Assembly (NCBI GenBank): GCA_902544345.1
Contig: CACCBT010000006.1
Span: 1-34,384 of the forward strand
Source of the DNA: an uncultured Pelagibacteraceae bacterium
GTDB lineage: Bacteria; Pseudomonadota; Alphaproteobacteria; Pelagibacterales; Pelagibacteraceae
DNA: 34,384 nt
Reading direction: 5' to 3'
Shown piece by piece: positions 4,263 to 33,325 of the stretch. A model generated the notes under the pieces. That model did no database searches and had not been told where the DNA came from. It worked only from the letters and a program-made list of their open reading frames with translations. Positions within the stretch are counted from its first letter, which is position 1, and each line of letters starts with the position of its first letter. The position numbers and the translations under genes are program-made.

Positions 4263-5832
<1,570 letters not shown>

Positions 5833-17424: not shown

Positions 17425-17470
17425 TTTTGAATTAATTATTGAATCTATCCAAAAGAGTTTTATATTAATA

Positions 17471-17731
17471 GTGTTGGTTTTCCAACTATGACGATAAACG
17501 AATTTCGTAATAAACATCACGGACGTGGGGGCAGTACCCACCACCTCCACCATTTACAACTTACGGGGGTGAATTAGGATCGACGGGTGTCTAAAAGCTG
17601 TTCTTTCGTACGAGATGGTTCCGACGTAACGGGCTAATTTATAAATGCAAATCAAAAATTTGCACTTGCAGCTTAATTAACTTAGTTAATTAAGTTACGG
17701 GGTCTTGGGGCACCTGGCAACAGAACGCCCC
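17471..17731 (+). ncRNA. ssrA: Two-piece, circularly permuted tmRNA: acceptor piece ~17471-17552 (CCA at 17550-17552), spacer 17553-17564, coding piece ~17565-17731
   Basis: GGACGTGGGGGCAGTACCCACCACCTCCACCA, then GGGGGTGAATTAGGATCGACGGG (tmRNA 5' consensus). GGGGGUG pairs with CACCUCC (7 bp, one G-U). Tag frame 17647-17676 reads ANQKFALAA*. Stop codon sits in hairpin CTTAATTAAC-TTA-GTTAATTAAG. 5' and outer end are approximate. Confidence 0.93.
17707..17731 (+). repeat. att-like repeat 1: 3' end of ssrA, GGGGCACCTGGCAACAGAACGCCCC
   Basis: Reference copy; related copies listed below, all in the same orientation. Confidence 0.9.
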
Positions 17732-17777
17732 TGCGTATTGGCGTTAACACTTATTAATTCACAACTTTTTTTATTTA

Positions 17778-17795
17778 GGACTCACATAGGACTCA
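17778..17795 (+). repeat. Cassette A left-end direct repeats GGACTCA x2, 11-bp period
   Basis: GGACTCACATAGGACTCA read directly; the same heptamer recurs at the cassette's right end. Confidence 0.8.
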
Positions 17796-17828
17796 GTGAA
17801 GAAAGACAAACTTAGTGAGCGGGGGAAC

Positions 17829-18242
17829 TTAATCTAAAACAGGTCCAACTCTATTTTGTTCAAAATAATCTATTAAAAAAAAAGCCATCTTTTGTCCTTT
17901 TATTTTATGTTTTTTATCGAAAACAAAACTCAGTGTTTGAGGATAGACTAATGCACTTGCAGCTACCCAATGATTTTTAACTACTTGGCCAGCTCCGTTA
18001 ACAGATAGATCGTGATACTTTTTCTTCATAAGCTTTTTAGTTATTTTGTATTTTTTAATAATCGGTTGATTATTTTTATCTTCAAAAGCTAATTCTATTA
18101 AATCATCTATTGCTTTTTCTTTTTCTCTAGATTTCTTAAACATTGAATTCATATCAAAATCCATTGATACATCAGATAGAACTCGACTAATCTTAACTAA
18201 CTTAGTTGATTTTTTTATACTTCTAAATATTCCGAAAACCAT
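17829..18242 (-). CDS. Hypothetical protein (cassette A)
   Basis: Likely start MVFGIFRSIKKS at 18242, overlapping the upstream gene's stop as TAATG; ORF track extends to 18299. Confidence 0.6.
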   Translation of the reverse strand: MVFGIFRSIKKSTKLVKISRVLSDVSMDFDMNSMFKKSREKEKAIDDLIELAFEDKNNQPIIKKYKITKKLMKKKYHDLSVNGAGQVVKNHWVAASALVYPQTLSFVFDKKHKIKGQKMAFFLIDYFEQNRVGPVLD

Positions 18243-18526
18243 TATTTGCTTGGCCCCCAAATTTTTCCACCCCAAAGATAACTTAAATGAACATAGCACA
18301 TTTTAAAAGAAATTAATCCGCCAATGAACAACAAATAATAGACCCAAGTACTTTCAGCCCAACTAATTGCGAGCCAAATCAAACCTACTCCAAGCGTAAG
18401 ATCAATTAACGCCCAAGCAATCATCGTCCACTTAGGGAATGATTTTCTTAAATCTTTTTTATCTCCAGACCAATAAACCTTTTTAGTATAATCTCTTGTT
18501 GAGTATTGGCTCTTTCTTTTTTTCAT
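18242..18526 (-). CDS. Small membrane protein (two hydrophobic segments)
   Basis: WTMIAWALIDLTLGVGLIWLAI and WVYYLLFIGGLISFKM; overlaps flanking genes. Confidence 0.65.
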   Translation of the reverse strand: MKKRKSQYSTRDYTKKVYWSGDKKDLRKSFPKWTMIAWALIDLTLGVGLIWLAISWAESTWVYYLLFIGGLISFKMCYVHLSYLWGGKIWGPSK

Positions 18527-19221
18527 TTTCCGATCTTATCACTCTTTTCTAAATTATGTCTTCTGCAATAAAGTCTAATATTTTTTGCATCTTTAGATGT
18601 TCCACCTTTGCTAAAAGGGATGATGTGATCGTAGTGTAGATGATCAGTTGATCCGCATTTAACACATTTGCCTTTATCTCTATTAAAGACTTCAATTTGA
18701 ACTTCACCAGGTATAATCCGATTATCTTCTTTTAAGTTATCTTTATTAATTTGATATCCATCTACTTTTTCATCTGTTAATAATAATTTAAATTTAAATA
18801 CCATTCTTCCACCTGATTTTTCCTCCCAACCATCAACAAGTTTGAAAACGCCGTTGAAAGTCCACATTCCAGGTTTAATTTTTTGATAAACTCTTATTTT
18901 TTCTGGATCTTTTAACCCATCTTTAAAAAAATGAGATGCTTTCATGAATTTTCCGTTCTCTGTTAATTTGCCATTCGGCGATGCAATTGGCTGATCGAAT
19001 GTATTTGGATCTTTATTTTTGCAATATCTTTTATTTAAATTATGGCCTTCATAAATAATCTCTTTTCCATCTTCACTTATTTTATCTTTGTATGGAGCGT
19101 TTTTAGCAACAGACATTAAAACAATGCTATAATTTTTATCTTTTATTTTGAAATTCATTCCTCGTTCTGGTCTGAAACCCTCAATCTCTTCTATTTTGCG
19201 ATATGGAATAATTTCGTTCAC
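18523..19221 (-). CDS. HNH endonuclease with N-terminal SRA/YDG-like domain (candidate type IV restriction enzyme); likely GTG start at 19221
   Basis: C-terminal CVKCGSTDHLHYDHIIPFSKGGTSKDAKNIRLYCRRHN (HNH); N-terminal IIYEGHNLN as in SRA-like HNH proteins. MPTSESSYDES upstream is antisense cassette-end repeat. Confidence 0.75.
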   Translation of the reverse strand: MNEIIPYRKIEEIEGFRPERGMNFKIKDKNYSIVLMSVAKNAPYKDKISEDGKEIIYEGHNLNKRYCKNKDPNTFDQPIASPNGKLTENGKFMKASHFFKDGLKDPEKIRVYQKIKPGMWTFNGVFKLVDGWEEKSGGRMVFKFKLLLTDEKVDGYQINKDNLKEDNRIIPGEVQIEVFNRDKGKCVKCGSTDHLHYDHIIPFSKGGTSKDAKNIRLYCRRHNLEKSDKIGK

Positions 19222-19266
19222 GGACTCATCATAACTGGACTCACTGGTGGGCACAATACGGACTCA
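19222..19266 (+). repeat. Cassette A right-end repeats: GGACTCA at 19222, 19237 and 19260
   Basis: Three exact heptamers; region shared with 28199-28228 and, diverged, ~30111-30143. Confidence 0.8.
19228..19256 (-). promoter_or_regulatory. Predicted promoter TTGTGC-N17-TATGAT, 6 nt before the GTG start (leaderless)
   Basis: Same spacing and position at 28190-28218 and 30104-30132. Confidence 0.6.
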
Positions 19267-19327
19267 CCTAGCAAAGAAATAGCCGTTTTTAATGATCTAG
19301 AATTGTTGTATAACGTTAAAAGGTTAA

Positions 19328-19351
19328 GGGCACCTGGCAACAGAACGCCCC
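19328..19351 (+). repeat. att-like repeat 2 (A/B boundary)
   Basis: GGGCACCTGGCAACAGAACGCCCC, inside the longer hairpin GGTTAAGGGC...GCCCCTTAACC (19322-19357). Confidence 0.9.
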
Positions 19352-19399
19352 TTAACCAACGGAAACCGTTGATCCGATTAAAATATCAAATTTAGAACA

Positions 19400-19433
19400 A
19401 CACGAAGTTTTACACGAAGTTTACACGAAGTTT
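19400..19433 (+). repeat. Cassette B left-end repeats ACACGAAGTTT x3, 12/11-bp period
   Basis: ACACGAAGTTTTACACGAAGTTTACACGAAGTTT; same unit recurs at 24607-24674. Confidence 0.85.
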
Positions 19434-19453
19434 TAAATCAAAAATTTACGAAC

Positions 19454-19627
19454 TTATTTTTTATTTTTTATTTTAAAACCTTGAGATTCAAGTACTTTGA
19501 TCAAATTTTTTAACTTTTGCTCTCGAGATGTATTTGAGTCCCCTATTTTTTCAAAAAATATTGGTTTTAAACCTCTATCTTTTTTTGATTTAAAATAGTT
19601 TTTTAGTGATTGTATTTTTAGTTTCAT
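19454..19627 (-). CDS. Small basic protein, 57 aa, not in ORF track
   Basis: MKLKIQSLKNYFKSKKDRGLKPIFFEKIGDSNTSREQKLKNLIKVLESQGFKIKNKK*; preceded by AAAGGAGAAAA (RBS-like). Confidence 0.55.
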   Translation of the reverse strand: MKLKIQSLKNYFKSKKDRGLKPIFFEKIGDSNTSREQKLKNLIKVLESQGFKIKNKK

Positions 19628-19782
19628 TTTTCTCCTTTAGCGTTTTGTTTATAGTCCTAGCAAGTAAAGTTTTTTTAAATCAGGACTAAATCAATACTAA
19701 CAAATCTACAAATTTTTGCCACTATTATTCAATAATATATAAATTGTTAAAGTTGACATCAAAACTTTAATAACTCCAAAAT

Positions 19783-20115
19783 ATGCAACAACTAGAACTG
19801 TTTGATTTCAGAAGAGATATTCTTTTTGAAAGAGATAATCAAATCGCTCGTTTTTATGATGTCCTTAGCGAAACTAATGACGGAATAAGTTATGCTGAAC
19901 ATATAGATCCCAAAAAAAAATTCTCTATATGTGGTATGGATTATGAAGAGTATGTAGACGTTAAAAAGAAATTCTTAAAGGGTTTGACTTATGACCAAAT
20001 ACTCAATTACTTAAAGAAATTTAAGAAGGAAGAAAGATTAGAAAAATATAAAATCTTACTTAAATTTAGAAACATACCTTTTGATGCTGATTTATTTACT
20101 TGGAATAGCGATTAA
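19783..20115 (+). CDS. Hypothetical protein, 110 aa (cassette B)
   Basis: Clean ORF upstream of the methyltransferase on the same strand; no recognised motif. Confidence 0.55.
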   Translation: MQQLELFDFRRDILFERDNQIARFYDVLSETNDGISYAEHIDPKKKFSICGMDYEEYVDVKKKFLKGLTYDQILNYLKKFKKEERLEKYKILLKFRNIPFDADLFTWNSD

Positions 20116-20128
20116 TTAAATTAAGACC

Positions 20129-20154
20129 GTTATACTTGCATCTGCGCGTATAAC
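20129..20154 (+). promoter_or_regulatory. Inverted repeat GTTATAC-N12-GTATAAC between 110-aa ORF and methyltransferase
   Basis: Perfect 7-bp arms; operator or terminator possible. Confidence 0.4.
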
Positions 20155-20204
20155 ACAACTTGAGACTACATCTAAAAAATATTTCTGATATAAGTTTCTA
20201 ATAT

Positions 20205-21005
20205 ATGGCAGAAAAAATGAATAATCTCTCAGGTAGTGAATGGTTACAGGAGTCATTTTCTATTTGGAGAGGGATCAAGAAAACTAAAGAAGAATTACTA
20301 ACAAAACACCCTGCTTTATTCCCTCAAAAATTACCTCAAAAATTAATAAATCTTTACACAAAAAAAAATGGTGAGTTAATACTAGATCCCTTCATGGGAA
20401 TCGGTTCTACTTTATTGGGATCCATGAACTCAGGTGTAAAATCTATTGGTTTAGATTTAAATAAATCATATGTCTCACTAGCAAAAAAGAGAATTAAAAA
20501 ATATCAAAAAGATTTGTTTAATGAAAAAAAAGTCTTTGAACCTAAAGTTATATGTGATGATGCAAATAATCTTTTAAAATATGTAAAAAAAGAAAGTGTA
20601 GATCTAGCAATAACATCTCCACCATACTGGAACATTTTAAATCAAAAAAGAACTGCTGATCATAAAGAAATTAGAACTTACTCTAAATCAAAAAAAGATT
20701 TAGGAAATATTGAAGATTACGAAAAATTTTTAAATTCTCTAAAAGAAGTGTTTTCAAAAGTATATGATGCACTTAAATTCAACAAAAGATGTATCTCTGT
20801 AGTTATGGATATCAGGAAAAAAGACAAGTTTTTCCCCTTACATGAAGATCAAACAAGAATAATGAAAGAAATAGGTTTTGAGTTAGAGGAATATGTAATT
20901 TGGGATAGACAAATAGATTATAATAATATGAAAACCTTGGGGTACCCATATGTTTTTAGATTTAACAAAGTGCATGAATTTATATGCATATATTGGAAAA
21001 GATAA
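20205..21005 (+). CDS. DNA methyltransferase (N4-cytosine/N6-adenine amino-MTase)
   Basis: Catalytic TSPPYWN; SAM motif LDPFMGIGSTLLGSMNSGVKSIGLDLN. Confidence 0.88.
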   Translation: MAEKMNNLSGSEWLQESFSIWRGIKKTKEELLTKHPALFPQKLPQKLINLYTKKNGELILDPFMGIGSTLLGSMNSGVKSIGLDLNKSYVSLAKKRIKKYQKDLFNEKKVFEPKVICDDANNLLKYVKKESVDLAITSPPYWNILNQKRTADHKEIRTYSKSKKDLGNIEDYEKFLNSLKEVFSKVYDALKFNKRCISVVMDIRKKDKFFPLHEDQTRIMKEIGFELEEYVIWDRQIDYNNMKTLGYPYVFRFNKVHEFICIYWKR

Positions 21006-21758
21006 TTAAAATAAATTCTTAAAAATTAATTTTTTATTACATTTTTTTTCTATATAAACTTTAACTTCATTTGCAGTTTCTGACCTTATAGTTCTTGGAA
21101 GTCCTATAAAATTAAATTCTTTTTCTAAATCTTTATAAAGTTCATGAAATTTATTAAAATTATTTAATTTTAATTCTTTTGATAAAAAATCTTTAAATGA
21201 GGACATTTCTCTAAAATCGATATTAACTCTTGGTGTTGTGGAACCTGATGAAAAATAGTTTCGATTTTGTTTTTCTGTGAATAATGTTTTGATTTTTTCT
21301 ATATAATCACAAAAAATTAATTCAGGGTTATATGTACATAATGCAAGTACTGCTACTTTAATTCCTGCTTTTTGATAAAGCATGTAAGTTGTATATGCTT
21401 CTCTTTCAATTAAACCTAAATTGTCTAAAGTAATATTTTCATTCAAAGTTTTATTAATTAAATCTGGTAAAGTTTTTAAATAAACAGGAGTAAACATTAC
21501 CTTTGTGTCTAAAAAAAAACTTTCGATTTTATTACTTTTATCTAGAACAATTAAATCTGGTAAATATCTTAGCATCAAGATGGTCTTGTTTTTCTTCAAA
21601 AAATCTGATTGCCAAACATTTGGTTGTTCTTTTGTTAAAGATTGTTTGAATTTTTCTGTGGGTAATACAATTAGATCTAAATCCTGAAAAAATTTAGTTA
21701 TTTTATTTTCTAAGACTTTTCCTATGGGTAATCTCAAATCTGTAAAATTATTACTCAT
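21006..21758 (-). CDS. Putative PD-(D/E)xK restriction endonuclease
   Basis: LPDLIVLDKSNKIESFFLDTK fits PD-Xn-DxK; located in an MTase operon. Confidence 0.6.
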   Translation of the reverse strand: MSNNFTDLRLPIGKVLENKITKFFQDLDLIVLPTEKFKQSLTKEQPNVWQSDFLKKNKTILMLRYLPDLIVLDKSNKIESFFLDTKVMFTPVYLKTLPDLINKTLNENITLDNLGLIEREAYTTYMLYQKAGIKVAVLALCTYNPELIFCDYIEKIKTLFTEKQNRNYFSSGSTTPRVNIDFREMSSFKDFLSKELKLNNFNKFHELYKDLEKEFNFIGLPRTIRSETANEVKVYIEKKCNKKLIFKNLF

Positions 21759-21759
21759 T

Positions 21760-22431
21760 TTACATTTTAAAATTTAATTGATTTGAATTTTTATTTTTAG
21801 TTGGTTTTTTTTTAACATTTACCTCTAATTTACCATACTCATTTCCCCAACCTTTAAATCCAATTCTTTTCTGTCTTGCAAAAACATCGAGTTTTTTTCC
21901 TTTAAAATATTTATGAATTAGTTGATAAAATTCATCGGGTTTAACAGAATGTGCAGATGAACTTGCGGCAAAACATGTTTTCATTTTTCCTAAACATTTT
22001 TTTTCAAATTTTGCTGTCCCTTTATAACCAAATAACAAATGTTCTGTTGTAATTTGATAAGGACCAAATGGACAAGGTCCAGTTTTCTTATCCCATGTAA
22101 TCATAGTATAGAAATTAAATCCCCATTCATTCAGTAAATCAAAACCAGTTTTTATTATTGGTTCTTTTGTTTTTTTATCTTTACTATTTGTTACCCATAA
22201 CCAAATAAAACAATTATTTTTTGACCATTCATTAATTGGAAGTTTTATAATTTCTTCTTTGCTTAAAGTTGGATAATCTAATTTTTTTGTTTGATTAGGT
22301 CTTACTCCCCTATAACCTGTTTTACCTTGATTCCATGGTGGGTCGACTACCAAAACATCGAACTTTTCAGTGTTCTTAATTTTGCATTTTCTGCTAATTT
22401 TATCAAAATATTGTTTAATATTTTTATTCAT
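21760..22431 (-). CDS. MT-A70-family adenine methyltransferase
   Basis: DVLVVDPPWNQGKTGYRGVRPNQ (DPPW) and RPNQTKKLDYPTLSKEEIIKLPI typical of MT-A70. Confidence 0.88.
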   Translation of the reverse strand: MNKNIKQYFDKISRKCKIKNTEKFDVLVVDPPWNQGKTGYRGVRPNQTKKLDYPTLSKEEIIKLPINEWSKNNCFIWLWVTNSKDKKTKEPIIKTGFDLLNEWGFNFYTMITWDKKTGPCPFGPYQITTEHLLFGYKGTAKFEKKCLGKMKTCFAASSSAHSVKPDEFYQLIHKYFKGKKLDVFARQKRIGFKGWGNEYGKLEVNVKKKPTKNKNSNQLNFKM

Positions 22432-22915
22432 CTAGTAACCTTCTGCATGCTAATGGTATAATTGATTCTTTTCTAATATTTTCATTATCATCATTAAAGG
22501 CAAAAATAATTAAATTCTTATCATTATAATTTACTAGTTTTTTATTAAAATTATCATCGATCATGAAGAAACTAATTTCTTCAGAGTGACCTTTGCGAGA
22601 AATCAAGAAAGAGAATGTTGGGTTTATTATTTTATTAAAGCACATAATCTCCCCTATCTCTCTCAAACCTACTGACTTGTGTGTTCTATTTATTAGCATA
22701 ATCTCAAATTTTTCATTCGATGTGTTTTGAATAATAACAGTGAAATCTGGAGTAAAGCACCAACTTGAATAACTTTTAAAATTTTTAATATATTCATTAT
22801 TAATTTTTGATAAATCTTCTGATTTAATAATGTCTACTAATTTATAATTTTTTTGTTTTGATATGAATTTTTTAATCCAAATTTCAATTTTATTTTCTAA
22901 AATACTATCAGACAT
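22424..22915 (-). CDS. Degenerate PD-(D/E)xK-like protein, similar to the C-terminus of the 553-aa neighbour
   Basis: TPDFTVIIQNTSNEKFEIMLINR...LREIGEIMCFNKIINPTFSFLISRK aligns with RPDIIGISKKSNKIFFIESK...VKELGQIWSYSVLANPFQSFLISTK. Confidence 0.55.
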   Translation of the reverse strand: MSDSILENKIEIWIKKFISKQKNYKLVDIIKSEDLSKINNEYIKNFKSYSSWCFTPDFTVIIQNTSNEKFEIMLINRTHKSVGLREIGEIMCFNKIINPTFSFLISRKGHSEEISFFMIDDNFNKKLVNYNDKNLIIFAFNDDNENIRKESIIPLACRRLLDE

Positions 22916-24569
22916 TAAATAGTTTTACTCCTTTTTTGATATTAAATTGACCAAAAATAATTTCTTTATTTTCGTTAAAATTTAAAAACTTTTTATCTTT
23001 ATTTTGTGCATAAACATTTAACAGAGATTTTGATATTTCTTTAGTAGAGATCAAAAAACTTTGGAAAGGATTTGCTAGAACTGAATACGACCAAATTTGT
23101 CCTAATTCTTTTACACCTAAGGAAACAATTTTACTTTCTATAAAGAAAATTTTATTCGATTTTTTTGATATACCAATTATGTCTGGTCGAATATTTAGAT
23201 CGTCTAAATTCTTGATTTTTTGTCTATATTTATCTGATGCCTTAAAATTCATTGAAAAATAATTTGCTAGAGTTTGAGATGATGTATCAAAAACATCACT
23301 ATCTTCATTAAATTTTTGTTTTATATAAGATTTCAACCAAATTATTAGGGGTTTATAAGTATCAATTTCAGAGATATTTTTATTTCTTTTTTTAATTTTA
23401 GTTTTAACTTTTTTTGGATGAGTTTTAATTATCTCCTCAAATTTTTTTTTTGCAGTTTGATTAAATATTTCATTAATCTTTTTAAAATCAGTTTTTTCTT
23501 TACTTCCATTAATTTGATAGATACTTTTGTTTTTAGAACTTAGCATTTCCTTTTCTAAATTTTTACAACCCATAAATAAATTTATTTGCCAGGAAGCATT
23601 TATATGTTTTCCTCTCAATCTTTCAGAGATTCTTATGTCATTATTCATAGGATGATATGGTTTTATATCTTTTTGCTCTATCTTTCGATTTGCTACTAAC
23701 CAATCTTCCACTTTATTATTAAAATCAACTTTTTGATTATGATTTAACAATTCTTTAAATAAAGTTTTTTTAGGTTCTAATCTTATTTTAAAGTTTTGAA
23801 GAGTTTCAGGCAGTAGTTTTATTTGATGTTCTTTGAAAGCACCATTTGGAGACTGCTGATGATGAAAATAATCTAAGGATGGATCAACAATATTTGGATG
23901 CCCCCACCTTATAGTTTGTGTTGGAATTTTAAAATTATCCCTTAAAAAGTTGTCAATTTGAATTGGTAAATTCCAATTTCTTACAATTTGCAAGTATACT
24001 CTCATCCTGGTATTTCCATTTTTTCCAGTTCTTGGATACCAGTTTCCTTGATTGAAAAAACCACATGTATCTAACAATCCATTAACAAACTCTGTTTTAA
24101 ATTCATTGCTCTCTTTGTTTAAACCGTCATCTATCTCAAAATTATCAAAACCAGTTTTTCCATGAAAAAAAATTGTTATAAATTCAATAATTTTTTTACT
24201 CTTAATATCTAAAATCAATATAGTTGTTGAATCTGTTGATAAAATTTGATGTTCAAAAGATAAGTTTTTTTTTAAAAAAGGTATAATATTTTCATCAATT
24301 GATTTTCGTGCATTTTCTTTTTGATTAAATATTTTTCTTACATTTCTATCAATGCAATTACTTCTTGAATTATTACAATTTGAGTTTTTACATTTTAAAA
24401 GATCAGAAAAACCAGTTGCTAACCATCCACATTTGGGACAATGAGCAATACCTTCAAGATATTTGTCTTTATGATTAAAATTTATTGCTAAGTTATTATT
24501 ACTTAAAATATTTCCTTTTCCACAAATCAAACCTAATAAATAAAATAAACCTGTATTTTTCATTATCAC
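22908..24569 (-). CDS. Putative endonuclease: degenerate LAGLIDADG-like motifs, zinc-ribbon-like Cys cluster, C-terminal PD-(D/E)xK domain
   Basis: FYLLGLICGKGNI and FVNGLLDTCGFF (LAGLIDADG-like); CPKCGWLATGFSDLLKCKNSNC; RPDIIGISKKSNKIFFIESK. Confidence 0.6.
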   Translation of the reverse strand: MIMKNTGLFYLLGLICGKGNILSNNNLAINFNHKDKYLEGIAHCPKCGWLATGFSDLLKCKNSNCNNSRSNCIDRNVRKIFNQKENARKSIDENIIPFLKKNLSFEHQILSTDSTTILILDIKSKKIIEFITIFFHGKTGFDNFEIDDGLNKESNEFKTEFVNGLLDTCGFFNQGNWYPRTGKNGNTRMRVYLQIVRNWNLPIQIDNFLRDNFKIPTQTIRWGHPNIVDPSLDYFHHQQSPNGAFKEHQIKLLPETLQNFKIRLEPKKTLFKELLNHNQKVDFNNKVEDWLVANRKIEQKDIKPYHPMNNDIRISERLRGKHINASWQINLFMGCKNLEKEMLSSKNKSIYQINGSKEKTDFKKINEIFNQTAKKKFEEIIKTHPKKVKTKIKKRNKNISEIDTYKPLIIWLKSYIKQKFNEDSDVFDTSSQTLANYFSMNFKASDKYRQKIKNLDDLNIRPDIIGISKKSNKIFFIESKIVSLGVKELGQIWSYSVLANPFQSFLISTKEISKSLLNVYAQNKDKKFLNFNENKEIIFGQFNIKKGVKLFNV

Positions 24570-24606
24570 AAGTTTAGCGTTATTATTTTAATTATTCCAT
24601 ATCTCT

Positions 24607-24674
24607 ACACGAAGTTGAAAGTCAAGAAATCGGCAAAATGAGCAAAACACTACACGAAGTTTTACACGAAGTTT
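24607..24674 (+). repeat. Cassette B right-end repeats ACACGAAGTT at 24607, 24652, 24664
   Basis: Same unit and orientation as 19400-19433. Confidence 0.85.
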
Positions 24675-24708
24675 TTGAAAAAGTGTTATATTCTGTATTA
24701 TTAATCAA

Positions 24709-24730
24709 GGGACGAGAAACAGAACGCCCC
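24709..24730 (+). repeat. att-like repeat 3 (B/C boundary), left half diverged: GGGACGAGAAACAGAACGCCCC
   Basis: Shares AACAGAACGCCCC with repeat 1. Confidence 0.8.
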
Positions 24731-24731
24731 T

Positions 24732-25757
24732 TTAATTTAAATATTTATCCAAAGTTTTTTTATCTGAGACGATAATAAAATCATCAAAATGAATAGATTG
24801 ATTGGGGTATTTAATTCCAATTTGTTTTCCCGAGTCTCTATAAACACCTATTCTTACATTAGTACCAGTGGATTCTCCTTTCCAATCAGATGTTATACCT
24901 TTGTAATCAAATATTAATTTATTATCTTTGAAGATTTCTACAAAACCAGTTTCTTGTCTAGTATTATAAATGCCAATTTTGTAAGTGGTCCATTTTCCTA
25001 ATTTAGTAATTTTTAATGATTTATTTTGTGTAAGTTTAAAATTATTTTTTATTTTTTTTTCACCTCTAGTTTTTTCTTGAAACACTAACCAATTTGAATC
25101 ATTTTTTTTATATTTTATATCAATACGATGCTTAATATTATCTTCTTTATTCCTTCTATTGAAACCAGTACCCGCAGTATTGCCGACTATTTTTAATGTT
25201 TTCCCAGTATCATCAAAACTTATTCTTACAAGAGGATGCGTTCTCATAGATGCATCTCGATTTTTAAATTCAAAAAACGTTACTCTGCCATCTATATGTT
25301 TAAAATCTTCAGGAAGTCTTGTTTTAAAACCAATCCATATTTCTTTATTTAAAGTGCTTCTTTGCTTTGTCTCAAATATTGCTCTTTCTGTCTCTTTTCC
25401 TGACCCTTCTTTAAGAGGATCATTATTCCATCCGTGTTTCAATGTAACTTCAAGATACTTATTGCCATCAAGATCTTTTTTAACTTTAAATGGTTTTAAA
25501 CCTGCTCCCTTATCATAGATTCGAAATATTTGGTTGAATGATTTTTCTGTACCCCCACCAGTAGCAGGATTTGAAGATGAAGGGTTAAGGTTGGCAACTT
25601 TTAGTTTTCCTTCTTCTTGATTTTCAAAGTCCTCAAAGAAATTCCATGGCGACTTTACCTTTTTATTTACATAATCTGGAACAGGTACCTTTTCCCAACT
25701 AAATGTAGTAATTGGAAATGATAAAATAAAAATAATTATAAATAAAATTATCCTCAT
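24732..25757 (-). CDS. Secreted polysaccharide lyase-like protein (heparin-lyase-type jelly roll)
   Basis: Signal peptide MRIILFIIIFILSFPITTFSW; WIGFKTRLPEDF..., GKWTTYKIGI, NQSIHFDDFIIV strand pattern. Confidence 0.55.
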   Translation of the reverse strand: MRIILFIIIFILSFPITTFSWEKVPVPDYVNKKVKSPWNFFEDFENQEEGKLKVANLNPSSSNPATGGGTEKSFNQIFRIYDKGAGLKPFKVKKDLDGNKYLEVTLKHGWNNDPLKEGSGKETERAIFETKQRSTLNKEIWIGFKTRLPEDFKHIDGRVTFFEFKNRDASMRTHPLVRISFDDTGKTLKIVGNTAGTGFNRRNKEDNIKHRIDIKYKKNDSNWLVFQEKTRGEKKIKNNFKLTQNKSLKITKLGKWTTYKIGIYNTRQETGFVEIFKDNKLIFDYKGITSDWKGESTGTNVRIGVYRDSGKQIGIKYPNQSIHFDDFIIVSDKKTLDKYLN

Positions 25758-25882
25758 TATGAAAGAATATAAGAATATTATTAAAACAAATAAATACATT
25801 TATTTGTTTTAATAAATTGAAATATAAATTTTAGTGCAATTTCAGGTTCTAGGGTACGATAAGAGAGTACTTGCCCCCAATT

Positions 25883-25949
25883 TCAATGAAGTTTCAAAAC
25901 AAGGTTTGGGGCAAAAGTTAAAAATTTCAATGAAGTCCTCAATGAAGTC
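25883..25949 (+). repeat. Cassette C right-end repeats TCAATGAAGT at 25883, 25927, 25939
   Basis: TCAATGAAGTCCTCAATGAAGTC, 12-bp period; same relative position as the cassette B repeats. Confidence 0.8.
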
Positions 25950-25989
25950 TTTCAAAAAAGTGTTATTTTCTGTTATAAATTGGTTTAAA

Positions 25990-26008
25990 GGGTAAAACAG
26001 AACGCCCC
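25990..26008 (+). repeat. att-like repeat 4 (C/D boundary): GGGTAAAACAGAACGCCCC
   Basis: Shares AACAGAACGCCCC core. Confidence 0.8.
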
Positions 26009-26066
26009 TTACAACTTTCCACTTTTCCTAAATTAATATCGCCAATTTAAATAATACAACCTGGCT

Positions 26067-26084
26067 TGCCGAAGATGTGACGGA
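26067..26084 (+). repeat. Cassette D left-end repeats TGCCGAA / TGACGGA, 11-bp period
   Basis: Match the 11-bp-spaced TGCCGA pair at 26689-26706. Confidence 0.55.
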
Positions 26085-26091
26085 ATTAATC

Positions 26092-26664
26092 TTATAAATC
26101 TTTTTTAAATAATTCAGCATCTTGTTTCTTGTTTTGCTTATACCATGCTGTAGGTAAAATTGTTATCGTTCCTAATTCTTTGTTATCTTTATACCTTATA
26201 GTAGAAATAGAGACGCCATCGCCATTATGATACACGCATTCTCTATTAACAAATTTTGCTCCCATTTTATTCATAAGATCTGTTTCTGTGCATTTAAACC
26301 CAGGGAATTTATTTTTTATTGCCTCAACAACTCTAACAAAATTAGATGCTGGTTGAATAACATTGGGACAAGTTGCTAATTCAGTACATAAAAGTGTGGC
26401 AGACATATTATAGTAGATTTTAAATTGAATAGCTTCAATCGTTGCAGGTTTTTTAGTCCACCATACAGTTGGTTTGTCCACATTAACTCCTGCTAATGTA
26501 GTCACATAATGGAAGGTATCGTATAATTTTCTTTGAGATTTCCAAGTTTGCTTAAACTCTTTTTTGTTTAAACCTAATTTAAATCCTTTCAACTCTACTT
26601 CTTTAGCTTGAACATTAATAAGCCAAAACATTGTGAGAAACGCTATACCTAAAAATTTTTTCAT
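26092..26664 (-). CDS. Secreted hypothetical protein (cassette D)
   Basis: Signal peptide MKKFLGIAFLTMFWLINVQA; four-Cys mature domain. Confidence 0.65.
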   Translation of the reverse strand: MKKFLGIAFLTMFWLINVQAKEVELKGFKLGLNKKEFKQTWKSQRKLYDTFHYVTTLAGVNVDKPTVWWTKKPATIEAIQFKIYYNMSATLLCTELATCPNVIQPASNFVRVVEAIKNKFPGFKCTETDLMNKMGAKFVNRECVYHNGDGVSISTIRYKDNKELGTITILPTAWYKQNKKQDAELFKKDL

Positions 26665-26688
26665 ACTTTAAGAATCTAGCATAAAAAT

Positions 26689-26706
26689 TGCCGATCCTCT
26701 GCCGAA
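26689..26706 (+). repeat. Cassette D right-end repeats TGCCGA x2, 11-bp period
   Basis: TGCCGATCCTCTGCCGAA. Confidence 0.65.
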
Positions 26707-26777
26707 ATTTCCTTCAAAGTTTTAGATTTTTAACAGTTGAAAATGGCTAATAATAAGGAATAACGTTAAAAGGTTAA

Positions 26778-26801
26778 GGGCACCTGGCAACAGGACGCCC
26801 C
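26778..26801 (+). repeat. att-like repeat 5 (D/E boundary)
   Basis: GGGCACCTGGCAACAGGACGCCCC followed by a near-copy of sequence downstream of ssrA. Confidence 0.9.
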
Positions 26802-26897
26802 TGCGTATTGGCGTTAACACTTATTAATTCACAACTTTTTTTAAATAGATCACAATAGGATCACACTGAAGAAAGACAAGTACCATCGGCGGGGGAA
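26802..26897 (+). repeat. Second copy of the cassette left end found at 17732-17826
   Basis: TGCGTATTGGCGTTAACACTTATTAATTCACAACTTTTTTT... GAAGAAAGACAA...GGCGGGGGAA; GATCACA x2 at 26848/26859 (11-bp period) where A has GGACTCA x2. Confidence 0.85.
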
Positions 26898-26915
26898 TTA
26901 GAAAGCTTTTTCTTT

Positions 26916-27344
26916 TTATAAATTTTTAATTAAAAAACTTAGTTTAGATAAATTTTCGTTTAAGGAGCTACTATTTTTTTCAGTCTCATTCATCAGTTGA
27001 TTTAATTTAAATTTATCAATCTTTTTAGAAATCTCAATGAAACTGCTTTTATATTCACTGCTAACCATGATTTCTCTCAGGTTCATAATACCCTTGAGCC
27101 TATTGAAAGCTTTTTCACACATTTCTCCTTTAGTTTCTTTCCACATCTTAATATAGCTAACGCATGAAGAGATAACATCGTTTTCAAACTCTAAAGCAAA
27201 ACTAATCTCTTTAATTATCGCAAATTTCTGATCTGTTGAGGCGGATGATAATTTAGATTTATAATCATTATACCTATTATCATCAATAAAAGCATTTCCA
27301 CTCCACAAAAAACCCAGAACCACGATCGCTAAAAGTTTTTTCAT
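26916..27344 (-). CDS. Secreted hypothetical protein (cassette E)
   Basis: MKKLLAIVVLGFLWSGNA signal peptide; start overlaps upstream stop as TAATG. Confidence 0.65.
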   Translation of the reverse strand: MKKLLAIVVLGFLWSGNAFIDDNRYNDYKSKLSSASTDQKFAIIKEISFALEFENDVISSCVSYIKMWKETKGEMCEKAFNRLKGIMNLREIMVSSEYKSSFIEISKKIDKFKLNQLMNETEKNSSSLNENLSKLSFLIKNL

Positions 27345-28183
27345 TAGTTTATATATTCTTTAATGATAGATCCAACTGTTGCCATAGACCTTAATCCGTG
27401 ACCTCCATCAATAATATGTAACTTAACTTGTAGTTTTTTCTTTTTAAGTAAATCATAATAATATTTTGAAACTCCTGGAGCTGTATTTTTATCATCTTTT
27501 CCAACAATTAATATGTTGAGAGATTTTAAATCTATATCTTTATAATTGAAACTTGGTGAGTTTTTTTTTAATTCTTTCAATTGAGATTTGGTTTCCCATT
27601 TTTTACCGTTGCTTAGTTTTTTTCTAGTTTCCCAGTCACACGGGCAAGAGATCAAAATATTTATATCAACTAATCCTGGTACTTTTCCATGAATAGTACC
27701 TCCCTGATAAGCTCCTCCAGAATGACCAATTAAAATTAGTTTTTTTGGTTTATAATATTTTTTAAGATTTTGTAATGCAGGTGCTAGTATTTGAAAATTT
27801 TTCCAATCATAATTTACCACTGTACTCTTTATAGCGTTACGAGGTCCTGATGAATATCTATCCTCTTCACTACTGCCTCTTTCTCTAATAAAGTAACCAG
27901 GTCTTGCAAAAAGAAAAATATTGTTATTATCGTTTATTAATTCTTTTGCAAATCTAATTTGACTTTTTTTGGGTATTCCTGGTCTTGGAGAATTAGGACT
28001 ACCATCACCATGAAGAAATACTATTAAGTTTTTTTTACCCTTTTCAATCTTTCCTAAATTTAAAATTGCTATACATTTGTTTTTACTTGCTGATATATAT
28101 TTTATGAAATCCTCTTTTTCACAAGCATTAGAGTTTCCACTCAACAGCAAACCTAGAACCACGATCCCTAAAAGTTTTTTCAT
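27344..28183 (-). CDS. Secreted alpha/beta hydrolase; start at 28183, not 28216
   Basis: Signal peptide MKKLLGIVVLGLLLSGNSNA; IVFLHGDGSPNS, LIGHSGGAYQGG, DGGHG. Confidence 0.75.
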   Translation of the reverse strand: MKKLLGIVVLGLLLSGNSNACEKEDFIKYISASKNKCIAILNLGKIEKGKKNLIVFLHGDGSPNSPRPGIPKKSQIRFAKELINDNNNIFLFARPGYFIRERGSSEEDRYSSGPRNAIKSTVVNYDWKNFQILAPALQNLKKYYKPKKLILIGHSGGAYQGGTIHGKVPGLVDINILISCPCDWETRKKLSNGKKWETKSQLKELKKNSPSFNYKDIDLKSLNILIVGKDDKNTAPGVSKYYYDLLKKKKLQVKLHIIDGGHGLRSMATVGSIIKEYIN

Positions 28184-28189
28184 AGACTC

Positions 28190-28218
28190 ATCATATCCGG
28201 ACTCACTGGCGATCACAA
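28190..28218 (-). promoter_or_regulatory. Predicted promoter TTGTGA-N17-TATGAT, 6 nt before ATG
   Basis: Same layout as 19228-19256 and 30104-30132. Confidence 0.6.
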
Positions 28219-28228
28219 TACGGACTCA
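28199..28228 (+). repeat. Cassette E right-end repeats GGACTCA-GATCACA-GGACTCA
   Basis: Read directly; flanks match cassette A right end. Confidence 0.75.
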
Positions 28229-28288
28229 CCCAGCAAAGAAATAGCCGTTTTTTATGATCTAGAATTGTTGTATAAAGTTAAAGGTTAA

Positions 28289-28309
28289 GGGCACCTGGCA
28301 TAACGCCCC
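28289..28309 (+). repeat. att-like repeat 6 (E/F boundary), internal deletion
   Basis: GGGCACCTGGCATAACGCCCC. Confidence 0.85.
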
Positions 28310-28368
28310 TTATAACTGTAAAATTTTCTCTCATTAATATTAATTATTAAATTTGTGAATCCTAGCAG

Positions 28369-28385
28369 GGCGGAGCTTTGGCGGA
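28369..28385 (+). repeat. Cassette F left-end repeats GGCGGA x2, 11-bp period
   Basis: GGCGGAGCTTTGGCGGA, within a ~45-nt stretch repeated at the right end. Confidence 0.75.
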
Positions 28386-28389
28386 ATTT

Positions 28390-29289
28390 TCACTGAAGTT
28401 TTAGTTTTTTTTCAAAGAACTCTATCATTTTAATTTCTGAGTCTTTATCTGCTTCTTGATTATATTGACTGGCTCTACCAACATAGTCATGGTTTTTTTC
28501 CGTAGATCTAACAAGTTTTTTATGCATCTCTCTATTAAAACCGTGATGTGCATTTTTATAAATAAAAATTTGCAACATTCCTGATGATATTTGTTCTGGG
28601 TCTCTGTTTTTCCACATTTTACAATTTGTAGATGAAACCCATTCATCTAGCTCCCCTATAAAAACAACTACTGGCATTAAAAGTTTTTGTTTTCCGCACG
28701 ATGGATAAAAAGCAACACCTGCATCAAACCAGTGTTTAACATTTTTATACAGATAGTTTTCTCTTATAAGTTCTCCTGCTAGAGATAAAACAGTCATACC
28801 TCCTCTGCTACCACCAACGATACCAAACTTATTATTTGTAAGATTGGGAAATTCAGATTTTAAGTACTCTATTGAACTTAAAGCTCCCATGCTTGAAGCT
28901 GGACCCCTCGTAATCGTACCCTTTGTTATACCGGTGTTATAAAATATGTCTAAAATAATTACGCCAAATCCCCTTTGAAGTAATTTTTTTGCATATCTTT
29001 CTTTTGTGACGGCAGCAGCCTCGCCAATACCTCCGCTCGTTGGTATGATAACTACATAAGGAGACGGTTTTTTATGTAATGGTTTAAAATGAAAAATATA
29101 ATAATCATCTCCCGTTGGTTTTTCACCCTTTTGTTTTTGAACCATAGTTAAAGGATATTTTATACCTTGTATTTTTGTAACTTTTGGAAAATTTTTACAT
29201 TTAGGATTATCTTTGCAAGAGAGCTCCCTGGATAAAGCTTGAGAACTAAAATTTAAAAAAAGAAATAGGATCATTAAAAGTTTTTTCAT
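28390..29289 (-). CDS. Secreted dienelactone hydrolase-family protein
   Basis: Signal peptide; GVIILDIFYNTG, GIVGGSRGGMTVLSLAGE, YKNAHHGFN. Confidence 0.75.
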   Translation of the reverse strand: MKKLLMILFLFLNFSSQALSRELSCKDNPKCKNFPKVTKIQGIKYPLTMVQKQKGEKPTGDDYYIFHFKPLHKKPSPYVVIIPTSGGIGEAAAVTKERYAKKLLQRGFGVIILDIFYNTGITKGTITRGPASSMGALSSIEYLKSEFPNLTNNKFGIVGGSRGGMTVLSLAGELIRENYLYKNVKHWFDAGVAFYPSCGKQKLLMPVVVFIGELDEWVSSTNCKMWKNRDPEQISSGMLQIFIYKNAHHGFNREMHKKLVRSTEKNHDYVGRASQYNQEADKDSEIKMIEFFEKKLKLQ

Positions 29290-29314
29290 GCTTTACGATC
29301 CTAGCATAAGTTTG

Positions 29315-29331
29315 GGCGGAGTTGGGGTGGA
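29315..29331 (+). repeat. Cassette F right-end repeats GGCGGA / GGTGGA, 11-bp period
   Basis: GGCGGAGTTGGGGTGGA. Confidence 0.7.
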
Positions 29332-29403
29332 ATTTCAATTGAGGTTTTAGATTTGATTCAATTACAAATGTTGTTTAATAAGGAATAATGTTACAAGGTT
29401 AAT

Positions 29404-29426
29404 GGCACCTGGCAACAGAACGCTCC
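29404..29426 (+). repeat. att-like repeat 7 (F/G boundary)
   Basis: GGCACCTGGCAACAGAACGCTCC. Confidence 0.85.
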
Positions 29427-30097
29427 TAAAATTTGTAAATTTCTTTTAATAATTGTTTTAATTCGATTTCATCTGTCCTGGCGTACAAATCAAAAAGTAT
29501 TGAATTAAGAATATCTTTATAATGTCTATAATTTTTATCATTTCCGAAAGAGGTAAATTTCATCTCTGAAAGTTTTATCTTTGATGGCTTCGAGATTTGA
29601 GGAACCTTAATATAACCTAGGCTGCCATATAAATTTGATTTTTTTATCAAAAAATTAATGTCTTTGTTTTTTTTTGGCCAAATTTTATCTGGTATCTTTT
29701 CATTTATTTTTTTTGCAAGACCAATGTTATCTACATAAATTTTTTTATTATCAGTATTTTGATAATCTTTTTTTAAATTTATATCTAAAAAAAATTTTGG
29801 GTCATATATATTTAAACTTTTAATTATTATCAAATTAGAAAAAATCGAGTTCATGTCAAAATTAATTTCTATTTTTTTAGCTTTAAATATATTTTTGAAA
29901 TAATTTTTATTGTTATTTGAAATCGCAATATCCTCTATTTTAACATAACCAGAATAATTAAATTCAAGTTTTTTAATTTTAACTGGTCTTTCAACCCAAT
30001 TGGATAATTTATTTATATAGTAGTAGGAAACAATTTTTTTGTTAAAAAAAATTAAAATACATATAATGATGAGAACGATCACAGTTATTTTCGGCAT
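29426..30097 (-). CDS. AsmA/DUF748-like membrane-anchored protein; start at 30097
   Basis: N-terminal TM then WVERPVKIKKLEFNYSGYVKIEDIAIS; stop codon touches the att repeat. Confidence 0.5.
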   Translation of the reverse strand: MPKITVIVLIIICILIFFNKKIVSYYYINKLSNWVERPVKIKKLEFNYSGYVKIEDIAISNNNKNYFKNIFKAKKIEINFDMNSIFSNLIIIKSLNIYDPKFFLDINLKKDYQNTDNKKIYVDNIGLAKKINEKIPDKIWPKKNKDINFLIKKSNLYGSLGYIKVPQISKPSKIKLSEMKFTSFGNDKNYRHYKDILNSILFDLYARTDEIELKQLLKEIYKF

Positions 30098-30103
30098 GAA
30101 AAT

Positions 30104-30132
30104 ATCATATCTGGTCTCACTGGCAGGCACAA
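30104..30132 (-). promoter_or_regulatory. Predicted promoter TTGTGC-N17-TATGAT, 6 nt before ATG
   Basis: Same layout as cassettes A and E. Confidence 0.6.
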
Positions 30133-30204
30133 TACAGACTCACTACGCAAAAGAAATAGCCATTTTTTATGATCAGGAATTTTTGCAAAACTTTTAAAGG
30201 TTAA

Positions 30205-30226
30205 GGGCACCTGGCAACAGAACGCC
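30205..30226 (+). repeat. att-like repeat 8 (G/H boundary)
   Basis: GGGCACCTGGCAACAGAACGCC. Confidence 0.85.
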
Positions 30227-30230
30227 TAGC

Positions 30231-30593
30231 TCATTGTTTATTCAATTTATTATAAATTAATCCGTATATGAAAATATTAAAAACTATTAGTGATATGCCA
30301 AAATATATTTGAATTTCACTAGTTAAGCCCTCAGGATAAATTATTGGAAAAAGATAGTTGCTGATAAAATCATTAGAATAAGTTGTCAACTCACCTTTGT
30401 TCAAAAACCAATTCTCTAAATAGGTCAATGGGCAAACGGAATTGGTTATTTCTATATAAACTCCCCATAATAGTGCTGGTGGATGAATATAGATGATTTT
30501 TGAAAAAATAAAAAAAAGTAGACCACCAAAAATAACAAATAAGATAAAAATTAAATGTGCAATTAAAGTAAGATTTGCAAACAATTCATACAT
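30231..30593 (-). CDS. DUF2784-like membrane protein
   Basis: HLIFILFVIFGGLLFF, HPPALLWGVYIEITNSVCPLTYLENWF. Confidence 0.75.
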   Translation of the reverse strand: MYELFANLTLIAHLIFILFVIFGGLLFFIFSKIIYIHPPALLWGVYIEITNSVCPLTYLENWFLNKGELTTYSNDFISNYLFPIIYPEGLTSEIQIYFGISLIVFNIFIYGLIYNKLNKQ

Positions 30594-30616
30594 TCAATAT
30601 AGTAACTAAAATTATA

Positions 30617-30639
30617 GGCCCCTGGCAATAGAACGCCCC
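30617..30639 (+). repeat. att-like repeat 9 (H/I boundary)
   Basis: GGCCCCTGGCAATAGAACGCCCC. Confidence 0.85.
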
Positions 30640-30759
30640 TTACAACTTTACAGTTTTCTTTGATTAATAATTCTAATTTAAATTATGCAAATTATTAGGT
30701 CGTAATTTCAATCAAATTATAGGTTTATTCACTTGGAACAGCTATTTATTAATTTTTAA

Positions 30760-32190
30760 TTACGTTTTTTTAATTAAATTAGATATTGTGTTGGCAAGTC
30801 TAATAGCTAGTTGCACTATTGAAAAAGTTGGATTGGTATAGCCGCCTGTAACAAAATTCGAACTTCCGTTAACATAAAGATTATTAACGTCATGTACCCT
30901 TAAATCAGAGTTAACAACTGAATTTTTTTTATCATTTCCCATTCTAGTACCACCCATATGGTGACCTCCATCTCCAACTAGCTTTAAATATTCTAAATTA
31001 AAAATATTTTCTTCTATAGCTATTCTACCTAAGTCATTTTCTATACAAAAGTTTGCAAACTCTTCTAAAAAAACTTTAGCTGTCCTAAGAGGTTTTGGTG
31101 ACCTTTTATAAAATAATTTTACTTTTGGTATTCCATATTTGTCTTTTTTATTTTGATTTAATACGATTTTATTATCTTCGGATGGTTCTTGTTCTAAGAG
31201 TAAATTAATATTTACACAGCGAAAACTTTCTTTGTGAAAAGTTTGAATTAATTTTTCACCATATTTAGGTGCTACACACATTATGTCTTTCACAAATTCT
31301 TTATCTATAACTTTCTCATTTCTAAAAACATCCTGTGTTAACATATACATATATGCACTTAAAATTTTATGTTCATTAACAAACTTTTTAGTTGTTGCAA
31401 AAAATGTCAAATCAGTAAAACCTAAAAAATTATCTCTCATTTTATTTTCAAATTTTTTTCGACTCAATACGCCTCTACCTCCTAGGACATGGGGGTGATT
31501 CATCCAATATTTTCCTATGGGTAATTTTTCATTTAATAAACCTGGAGTTTTGTTTTTTGTCCATAGTAAAAGTCTAGAGTTCTCAATACCGCCGCATGAT
31601 AAGATAAAATATTTACCTTTTATTTTTTTTTCTTGAGCATTAGAATGGCATATAGCATGATTTATATTGTTATTTTTTCCGACAAGATAGGAAAGCTGAG
31701 TATTTAAAACTAAGGCTATTTTATCGGAGTCCTTTATATGGTTTTTGTACTTCTCAGCAAATTTAACTCTTGAAGTTTGAAACTCAATTTGGCTAAAGGA
31801 TTTATCTATTAAAGTTTTTCTAAACTGATTTTTAATATCTAATATTTCACAAGCTCTATCTAAATAAGGTTTCAAATCATTATTATTAATTGGCCATAAA
31901 TCAAAAGTGTAATCTTCAAGTGGTTTGCATGTCCCTCCCCAAAGCCCCGAGGTCCCTCCAAATTGCCTTAATCTGCTTTCTGATAAAGGCATAATCTGAT
32001 CTCCAATAATTTTTCCTTTATAAAAACCTTGAGATATTTCACTATAGTTTTCATTTCCTGCTTCAATTATTATTGAGTTAATATTTTTTTTCTCTAATTC
32101 TAATGCTGTTGAAATTCCGGCTGGGCCGCTGCCAAATATAATAACTGGAAATTTATCTAATTGAAGACTATCTAAATTGTATGAAATCAT
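30760..32190 (-). CDS. GMC-family FAD-dependent oxidoreductase
   Basis: VIIFGSGPAGISTALELEKKNINSIIIEAG; C-terminal HHMGGTRMGNDKKNSVVNSDLRVHDVNNLYVNGSSNFVTGGYTNPTFS. Confidence 0.85.
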   Translation of the reverse strand: MISYNLDSLQLDKFPVIIFGSGPAGISTALELEKKNINSIIIEAGNENYSEISQGFYKGKIIGDQIMPLSESRLRQFGGTSGLWGGTCKPLEDYTFDLWPINNNDLKPYLDRACEILDIKNQFRKTLIDKSFSQIEFQTSRVKFAEKYKNHIKDSDKIALVLNTQLSYLVGKNNNINHAICHSNAQEKKIKGKYFILSCGGIENSRLLLWTKNKTPGLLNEKLPIGKYWMNHPHVLGGRGVLSRKKFENKMRDNFLGFTDLTFFATTKKFVNEHKILSAYMYMLTQDVFRNEKVIDKEFVKDIMCVAPKYGEKLIQTFHKESFRCVNINLLLEQEPSEDNKIVLNQNKKDKYGIPKVKLFYKRSPKPLRTAKVFLEEFANFCIENDLGRIAIEENIFNLEYLKLVGDGGHHMGGTRMGNDKKNSVVNSDLRVHDVNNLYVNGSSNFVTGGYTNPTFSIVQLAIRLANTISNLIKKT

Positions 32191-32393
32191 TAATCATCGG
32201 CGCTCAAATGCCAGACAAAATTATTACTTTTTTTAATTTTTTTCTTTTTTTTATATAAAAAAAAAGAATTCATAAAAAAAATCGTAGGTAAAAAAAATAA
32301 AAATGATTTTAATAAATTTCTCCTATTTAATTTCATTTAAAAAAGATAATCAATATTTTTAAAGAAGTCGAGAAACAAGGTGCCTTTAAAAAG

Positions 32394-32476
32394 TGTAACA
32401 ATACAATGAATAAAGGCCTAAAGCTGGAACTGTTACACTCACAAAAATTGTAAAATCAGCTAGCAAGCCAAAATAA
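32394..32476 (-). pseudogene. Degraded fragment of the small membrane-protein gene at 34153-34384
   Basis: AACAATACAATGAATAAAGGCCTAAAGCTGGAACTGTTACA...AAAATTGTAAAATC...AAGCC resembles 34288-34360; frame broken; ends at the att repeat. Confidence 0.6.
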
Positions 32477-32497
32477 GGGCACCTGACAACAGAACGC
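32477..32497 (+). repeat. att-like repeat 10 (I/J boundary)
   Basis: GGGCACCTGACAACAGAACGC. Confidence 0.8.
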
Positions 32498-32555
32498 TTT
32501 TAAAAAATATGCTAACATCTAACCACTTTGTAGTTTAATTTACTGTTTAAAAACA

Positions 32556-33251: not shown

Positions 33252-33256
33252 AACAA

Positions 33257-33279
33257 GACACCAGGCAATAGAACGCGCC
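33257..33279 (+). repeat. att-like repeat 11 (J/K boundary), degraded
   Basis: GACACCAGGCAATAGAACGCGCC. Confidence 0.7.
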
Positions 33280-33325
33280 TACTTAATTACATTAAATCCA
33301 CGATTGACATAATCTTTGTTTTTAT

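Follow-up and report, generated by a model that had tools for sequence, protein, structure and literature searches.

Gene organisation of the locus

In this study we describe a putative restriction-modification (R-M) system encoded on a stretch of 34,384 nucleotides (contig CACCBT010000006.1 of GenBank assembly GCA_902544345.1, from an uncultured Pelagibacteraceae bacterium), the whole of which is called the window below. The central gene of the locus codes for a protein of 553 amino acids (aa), in which a LAGLIDADG fold is fused to a PD-(D/E)xK nuclease domain. It occupies positions 22908..24569 of the minus strand (an alternative ATG at 24563 may be the true start) and is followed on the same strand by genes for a 163-aa protein (22424..22915), a 223-aa MT-A70-type adenine methyltransferase (MTase) with the DPPW motif (21760..22431) and a 250-aa protein with a PD...DxK motif, a candidate accessory nuclease (21006..21758). 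The 553-aa and 163-aa genes overlap by 8 bp, as do the 163-aa and MT-A70 genes, and the gap between the MT-A70 and 250-aa genes is 1 bp. On the plus strand, the gene of a TSPPYWN MTase, placed in the cytosine-type slot of the system (20205..21005), converges on this array, and its end at 21005 abuts the end of the 250-aa gene at 21006.

An earlier inspection of the letters and their open reading frames (ORFs), referred to here as the sequence-only reading, had proposed a new R-M system with two MTases and several nuclease-like proteins at this place. Its ORFs, both 8-bp overlaps and the 1-bp gap were exact when the window was re-checked; the start which it gave to the locus, 19783, belongs to a separate 110-aa ORF upstream of the TSPPYWN MTase (19783..20115, plus strand). 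Membership of this ORF in the system is doubtful: it matches no family in the libraries searched and was not seen in related loci by neighbourhood comparison.

Both MTases are recognised by family libraries, the TSPPYWN enzyme as Pfam N6_N4_Mtase (1.2e-29) and the other as Pfam MT-A70 (1.1e-25) and PADLOC Type II MTase (2.1e-33), and PADLOC rates the two of them as Type II MTases. No meaningful hit to Pfam, NCBIfam, PADLOC, PHROGs or PDB sequences was obtained with the 553-, 163- or 250-aa protein, and for this reason the nature of the nuclease-like proteins was taken from comparative and structural work.

The LAGLIDADG part of the 553-aa protein

The LAGLIDADG-like part, called the reader in this work, covers residues 1 to ~345. 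Two phages from the gut and two Lactiplantibacillus plasmids carry distant relatives of the 553-aa protein, as translated searches showed. In these its counterpart is split into adjacent genes of ~290 and ~165 aa, and a neighbouring MTase combines an EcoRI-type adenine enzyme and a C5-cytosine enzyme in one fusion. The ~290-aa part carries two LAGLIDADG-like helices (LLGMILGNG and LRGIADVTG). The AlphaFold model of the 553-aa protein has a mean predicted local distance difference test score (pLDDT) of 78.5, with values above 90 in many blocks of both domains, and the top of its Foldseek list against PDB consists entirely of LAGLIDADG enzymes: I-Tsp061I (E 5.9e-6), I-DmoI, PI-SceI and I-SceI. 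Structural matches among viral proteins were mostly homing endonucleases and intein-bearing proteins. The model, the Foldseek matches and the motif alignment thus all place a LAGLIDADG fold with two motif helices in this protein.

The residues which close the two motifs are not those of an active enzyme. At the catalytic aspartate position of motif 1, YLLGLICGKGNI (24507..24542, minus strand), the window has K, and the 89 aligned homologues have N (80), K (6) or R (3); at that of motif 2, FVNGLLDTCGFF (24054..24089, minus strand), the window has C, and the homologues T (85), A (3) or C (1). D or E was never found at either position, and both catalytic aspartates are absent in all 89 homologues. 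The reader of the window also contains a zinc-ribbon-like insert of four cysteines, CPKC...C...C (C44, C47, C60 and C65; 24375..24440, minus strand), which is invariant in the window and in three loci of Gastranaerophilales type (L012-L014) and absent from all other aligned relatives.

The nuclease domain and its paralogue

Residues ~396-553 form the second domain, with the active-site motif PD (462-463) ... ESK (478-480) at 23130..23186 of the minus strand, supported by alignment and model. The D, E and K of this motif are invariant in 84 of 84 stand-alone homologues and kept in all four fusions, and the strand-helix order of the AlphaFold model agrees with the alpha-beta-beta-beta-alpha-beta core of PD-(D/E)xK enzymes, with PD...ESK located on it. 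The sequence-only reading had treated the 553-aa protein simply as a nuclease; the nuclease domain is indeed there, with a model that fits PD-(D/E)xK as well as LAGLIDADG, and what had been missed is the two-domain fusion with a dead LAGLIDADG fold. Since the catalytic aspartates are lost throughout and the nuclease residues are intact throughout, the meganuclease fold has probably become a DNA reader which is no longer catalytic, leaving the cutting to the PD-(D/E)xK domain.

The 163-aa protein aligns with the same nuclease family and retains PD, but E-x-K is replaced by N-R-T; the sequence is homologous and the catalytic residues are gone. Paralogues in L012-L014 have N-R-S in place of E-x-K, which makes the loss common to four of four paralogues, and therefore old and shared by the alphaproteobacterial and Gastranaerophilales lineages. 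In L012-L014 the ratio of non-synonymous to synonymous substitution rates (dN/dS) of the dead paralogue is 0.10-0.13, a sign of purifying selection, versus 0.05-0.10 for the live domain. Selection of this kind on a dead copy suggests that the 163-aa protein is likely a functional partner rather than debris.

Conservation of the module and the pairing of methyltransferases

A profile of the LAGLIDADG part only, run against ~85,000 genomes, gave 139 relatives, and neighbourhoods were compared for the 80 of them that were fetched, together with the phages and plasmids. The relatives span Bacillota, Bacteroidota, spirochaetes, Endomicrobia, Gastranaerophilales, Alphaproteobacteria and archaea (Altiarchaeales, Thermoplasmata and Pacearchaeota). 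Essentially all complete loci show two MTases, then the reader, then a PD-(D/E)xK nuclease, with the MTases having had no part in the query; four incomplete loci begin near contig ends. The gene arrangement cannot be put down to chance, because the module was found again in more than 85 loci with the N-terminal part of the 553-aa protein as the sole query. Co-localisation of homologues elsewhere, on which the sequence-only reading had made its proposal depend, is near universal and speaks in its favour. Most relatives have a single nuclease gene separate from the reader; 89% of reader-nuclease gene junctions overlap, and reader and nuclease distances are correlated (r = 0.82). Neither the window's own protein nor the fusion profile found anything in scans of viral sequences.

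The closest arrangement is that of L012-L014, which share with the window the fusion, the four-cysteine insert, the dead paralogue and the convergent TSPPYW MTase, at identities of ~38% over the whole fusion, 44% in the reader part and 31-34% in the dead paralogue, and which fall together with it in one starred clade of the reader tree. In the adenine slot they carry an Eco57I-like enzyme instead of MT-A70, and they likewise lack the 250-aa gene. In the window's own surroundings the system is rare, occurring in 1 of 101 genomes of its group (own and close relatives), 2 of 289 sampled genomes of the class and 1 of 399 of the phylum.

Each of the 85 complete loci has one adenine-type and one cytosine-type MTase. 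When classes were assigned by hidden Markov models seeded from the first loci (bit score >100), the pairs were NPP (Eco57I-like) with TSPPYW in 41 loci, EcoRI-type with Dcm-type in 38, NPP with Dcm in 5 and MT-A70 with TSPPYW in the window, counts which come from loci related by descent and not independent. Pfam matches to Eco57I/N6_Mtase and to a TaqI-like specificity domain support the NPP class. At least 5 switches of the pair are seen on the reader tree. The TSPPYWN MTase of the window is 50% identical to the MTase adjoining the reader gene in phage contig L006. Judging from its motif and from its slot, in which it is exchanged with Dcm, the TSPPYW enzyme is probably a cytosine-N4 MTase. 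Because the adenine + cytosine rule holds in 85 of 85 loci, we assign the MT-A70 enzyme to the system as the predicted occupant of its adenine-MTase slot. MT-A70 with this nuclease pair, a combination which the sequence-only reading did not recognise, is unique to the window among the 85.

Proposed mechanism and alternative explanations

MTases identified by Pfam and PADLOC are here encoded together with a nuclease whose D, E and K are intact, and this linkage is conserved, as in R-M systems. We consider it likely that the locus represents a Type II, Type IIT-like R-M system for an asymmetric site, built of a LAGLIDADG reader and a PD-(D/E)xK cutter with live/dead pairing and two MTases. It is called only Type IIT-like since one of the two nuclease sites lacks E-x-K and most relatives have one nuclease gene. 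In the proposed course of events the LAGLIDADG fold would bind the asymmetric recognition sequence and place the fused PD-(D/E)xK domain for cleavage, and the 163-aa dead paralogue would complete the nuclease dimer as its non-catalytic partner, so that a single complex would probably cut only one of the strands. To break both, a second complex, a second pass or a further nuclease, for instance the 250-aa protein, would be required. The system would restrict phages. Host DNA would be protected by the two MTases, MT-A70 modifying an adenine on one strand of the site and the TSPPYW enzyme a cytosine on the other. On balance we also lean towards a wider view, in which a widespread and so far undescribed class of restriction enzymes leaves target reading to a dead LAGLIDADG fold and cutting to a PD-(D/E)xK nuclease distinct from it, the MTases for adenine and cytosine being replaceable by unrelated families, and in which the window's clade would pair a live and a dead nuclease as a natural nickase or half-site enzyme.

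Several points weigh against this interpretation. LAGLIDADG enzymes normally have recognition sites of ~20 bp, longer than is usual for an R-M target. The window lineage is a long branch on the reader tree, MT-A70 accompanies this reader in the window alone (1 of 85), the 250-aa protein occurs in just 2 of about 89 loci, and Foldseek gave no separate match for the PD-(D/E)xK domain. The cytosine assignment of the TSPPYW enzyme depends on motif and slot, and the activity of every family member is a prediction.

It is possible, as a tentative sub-version compatible with the R-M explanation, that the system nicks one strand specifically instead of breaking both strands as a classical enzyme does. 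In the window and in L012-L014 one active site is intact and the other lost, and known heterodimeric enzymes become strand-specific nickases once one site is inactive (PMC6326814, PMC4081073); yet extra nuclease-like genes (the 250-aa gene in the window, SfsA-like genes by L012 and L014) could supply the second cut, and monomeric or multi-complex cutting can also yield a double-strand break.

We regard as rather unlikely that the locus consists of two neighbouring R-M systems, one made up of the fusion, the dead paralogue and the TSPPYW MTase, the other an ordinary Type II pair of MT-A70 and the 250-aa protein nested in the same operon. This would suit the 1-bp gap between the latter two genes and their joint absence from L012-L014, and a pair of MT-A70 MTase and BglII-type restriction endonuclease (Pfam 4.5e-36) does exist in the same genus (L095:1516-2728). 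Without MT-A70, however, the window would be the sole exception to the presence of an adenine MTase in the complete relatives, and the recovered 60% of the genome has only CcrM- and PrmC-like enzymes as alternatives. Furthermore, the MT-A70 gene overlaps that of the dead paralogue, and the homologue of the 250-aa protein in L075 adjoins an NPP+TSP reader system which has no MT-A70.

That the locus is decaying or serves modification only seems very improbable: its rarity among the 101 sampled genomes and the inactive nuclease copy would fit, but every frame is intact, lineages of two phyla have the inactivation in common, and in relatives purifying selection acts on the dead copy. The idea of a free-standing selfish homing endonuclease that invaded R-M loci, suggested by the top structural matches of the fold to homing endonucleases and inteins, was rejected as the least credible of all, because an acidic residue closes the motifs in 0 of 89 homologues at either position and the reader always has a member of one nuclease family as its neighbour, diverges in step with that family and, in four loci, forms a single protein with it.

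The 250-aa protein and other accessory genes

Of all parts of the R-M system proposed here, the 250-aa protein is assigned with the least certainty, and it is not a conserved core component. The PD-(D/E)xK motif attributed to it earlier is present as PD...DTK, and its fold was not confirmed by the model (pLDDT 32, from a two-row alignment). A search for relatives that covered viral contigs, phages, plasmids and ~500 genomes yielded one convincing case, L075, a locus of a Tissierellia genome: its homologue is 28% identical, reads PD...EYK and lies ~120 bp upstream of a reader-type R-M locus in divergent orientation, which suggests that the 250-aa protein may be accessory to the reader system rather than to MT-A70. 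L093 (an SfsA-like protein), L102 and L103 gave weak candidates that were discarded.

Other small genes accompany the module in its relatives. SfsA-like proteins, which have a nuclease-like fold, adjoin it in eight loci (L012, at 5040-5765, L014, L019, L033, L067, L068, L074 and L091). A family of ~150 aa without Pfam or NCBIfam match is found in 41 loci, between the MTases and the reader or after the nuclease (for example L017:6533-6988), at times in two copies and at times fused to a NOV_C domain.

The probable tmRNA-associated cassette

The R-M genes sit between two direct repeats derived from the 3' region of the transfer-messenger RNA (tmRNA) gene. The left one (19328..19352, plus strand) is 100% identical to 17708-17732 within the tmRNA gene; the right one (24707..24731, plus strand) is degenerate with its core AACAGAACGCCCCT intact. 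The GC content of the cassette is 25.2% versus 30.7% in the rest. Flanking repeats and low GC make it probable that the R-M genes are an inserted cassette.

Copies of the tmRNA 3' repeat (GGGCACCTGGCAACAGAACGCCCCT) were observed in the window at 17708, 19328, 24707, 25985, 26778, 29403 and 30205, with further degenerate ones (region 17457-33280), and in many genomes of the genus (including L126-L131) further copies follow downstream of the tmRNA gene at intervals of 0.2-5 kb, separated by small cassettes of genes. The tmRNA locus thus looks like a cassette array; no recombinase gene was seen in it. Repeats of TACACGAAGTTT lie just within both ends of the R-M cassette (19397-19444 and 24606-24674) and are possible sites for the binding of a recombinase. 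Many cassette proteins (L126, L127, L131; window 26092-27344) have almost the same secretion signal (MKKLLAIVVLGL...), as if it travelled along with the cassette boundary. An HNH protein in the adjacent cassette (18523-19254) has a weak match, C-terminal HNH only, to the RNA-guided IscB HNH model (2e-6, far below cut-off), and a cassette at the same tmRNA site in L131 (1060-2289) codes for a protein that has an MrcB-like N-terminal domain and a NOV_C domain and may be another DNA-defence gene.

Novelty and comparison with known systems

Reader and nuclease have no family in Pfam, NCBIfam, PADLOC, PHROGs or PDB. Full-text literature searches found no description of LAGLIDADG-based R-M enzymes, although REBASE, which they did not cover, may hold putative entries; in a review of Type II enzymes the word LAGLIDADG has 0 occurrences (PMC4081073). 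The locus is very probably an R-M system with two MTases, as proposed earlier, and of a kind missing from the libraries searched. Should the reader model hold, the LAGLIDADG fold has been taken over by restriction enzymes purely for reading DNA, which would connect two fields of nuclease research that are mostly treated separately. Natural readers with attached cutters would then serve as models and tools in work on site-specific nucleases and nickases. Since the MTases are swapped while the adenine + cytosine rule stays fixed, the family would also allow a direct test of how restriction specificity survives an exchange of the enzymes that protect the host. Surveys based on the libraries searched here, PADLOC included, see the MTases only and miss the restriction subunits.

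Type IIT enzymes generally have two MTases, one per strand and sometimes fused (PMC4081073), and the analogy drawn earlier with BbvCI and other Type IIT systems for asymmetric sites fits. All complete loci have two different MTases, for which an assignment of one to each strand is predicted. BbvCI and Bpu10I resemble the present system in having two different nuclease polypeptides and, as we infer, an asymmetric site; in BbvCI, however, R1 and R2 are both active and of similar size (PMC6326814), whereas here a reader-nuclease fusion stands beside a dead paralogue. Type IIT enzymes with unequal subunits (BtsI, BsrDI, BspD6I) likewise combine a large recognition subunit, a small nuclease subunit and two MTases (PMC2909958, PMC4081073), and the BtsI subunit masses of ~38 and 19 kDa (implied by PMC2909958) resemble the sizes of reader and nuclease. 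Unlike the large subunit of BtsI, which nicks DNA itself, the stand-alone reader has a LAGLIDADG fold and no recognisable active site. With I-DmoI, I-Tsp061I and PI-SceI it has the fold and two LAGLIDADG helices in common, but the reader family has lost the catalytic aspartates throughout and is fixed with MTases and a PD-(D/E)xK nuclease. A parallel for a LAGLIDADG fold used without nuclease function is the transcription factor WhiA, which ranks 41 among the Foldseek matches of the 553-aa model; in WhiA the fold serves transcription, whereas in the family described here it is tied to R-M genes.

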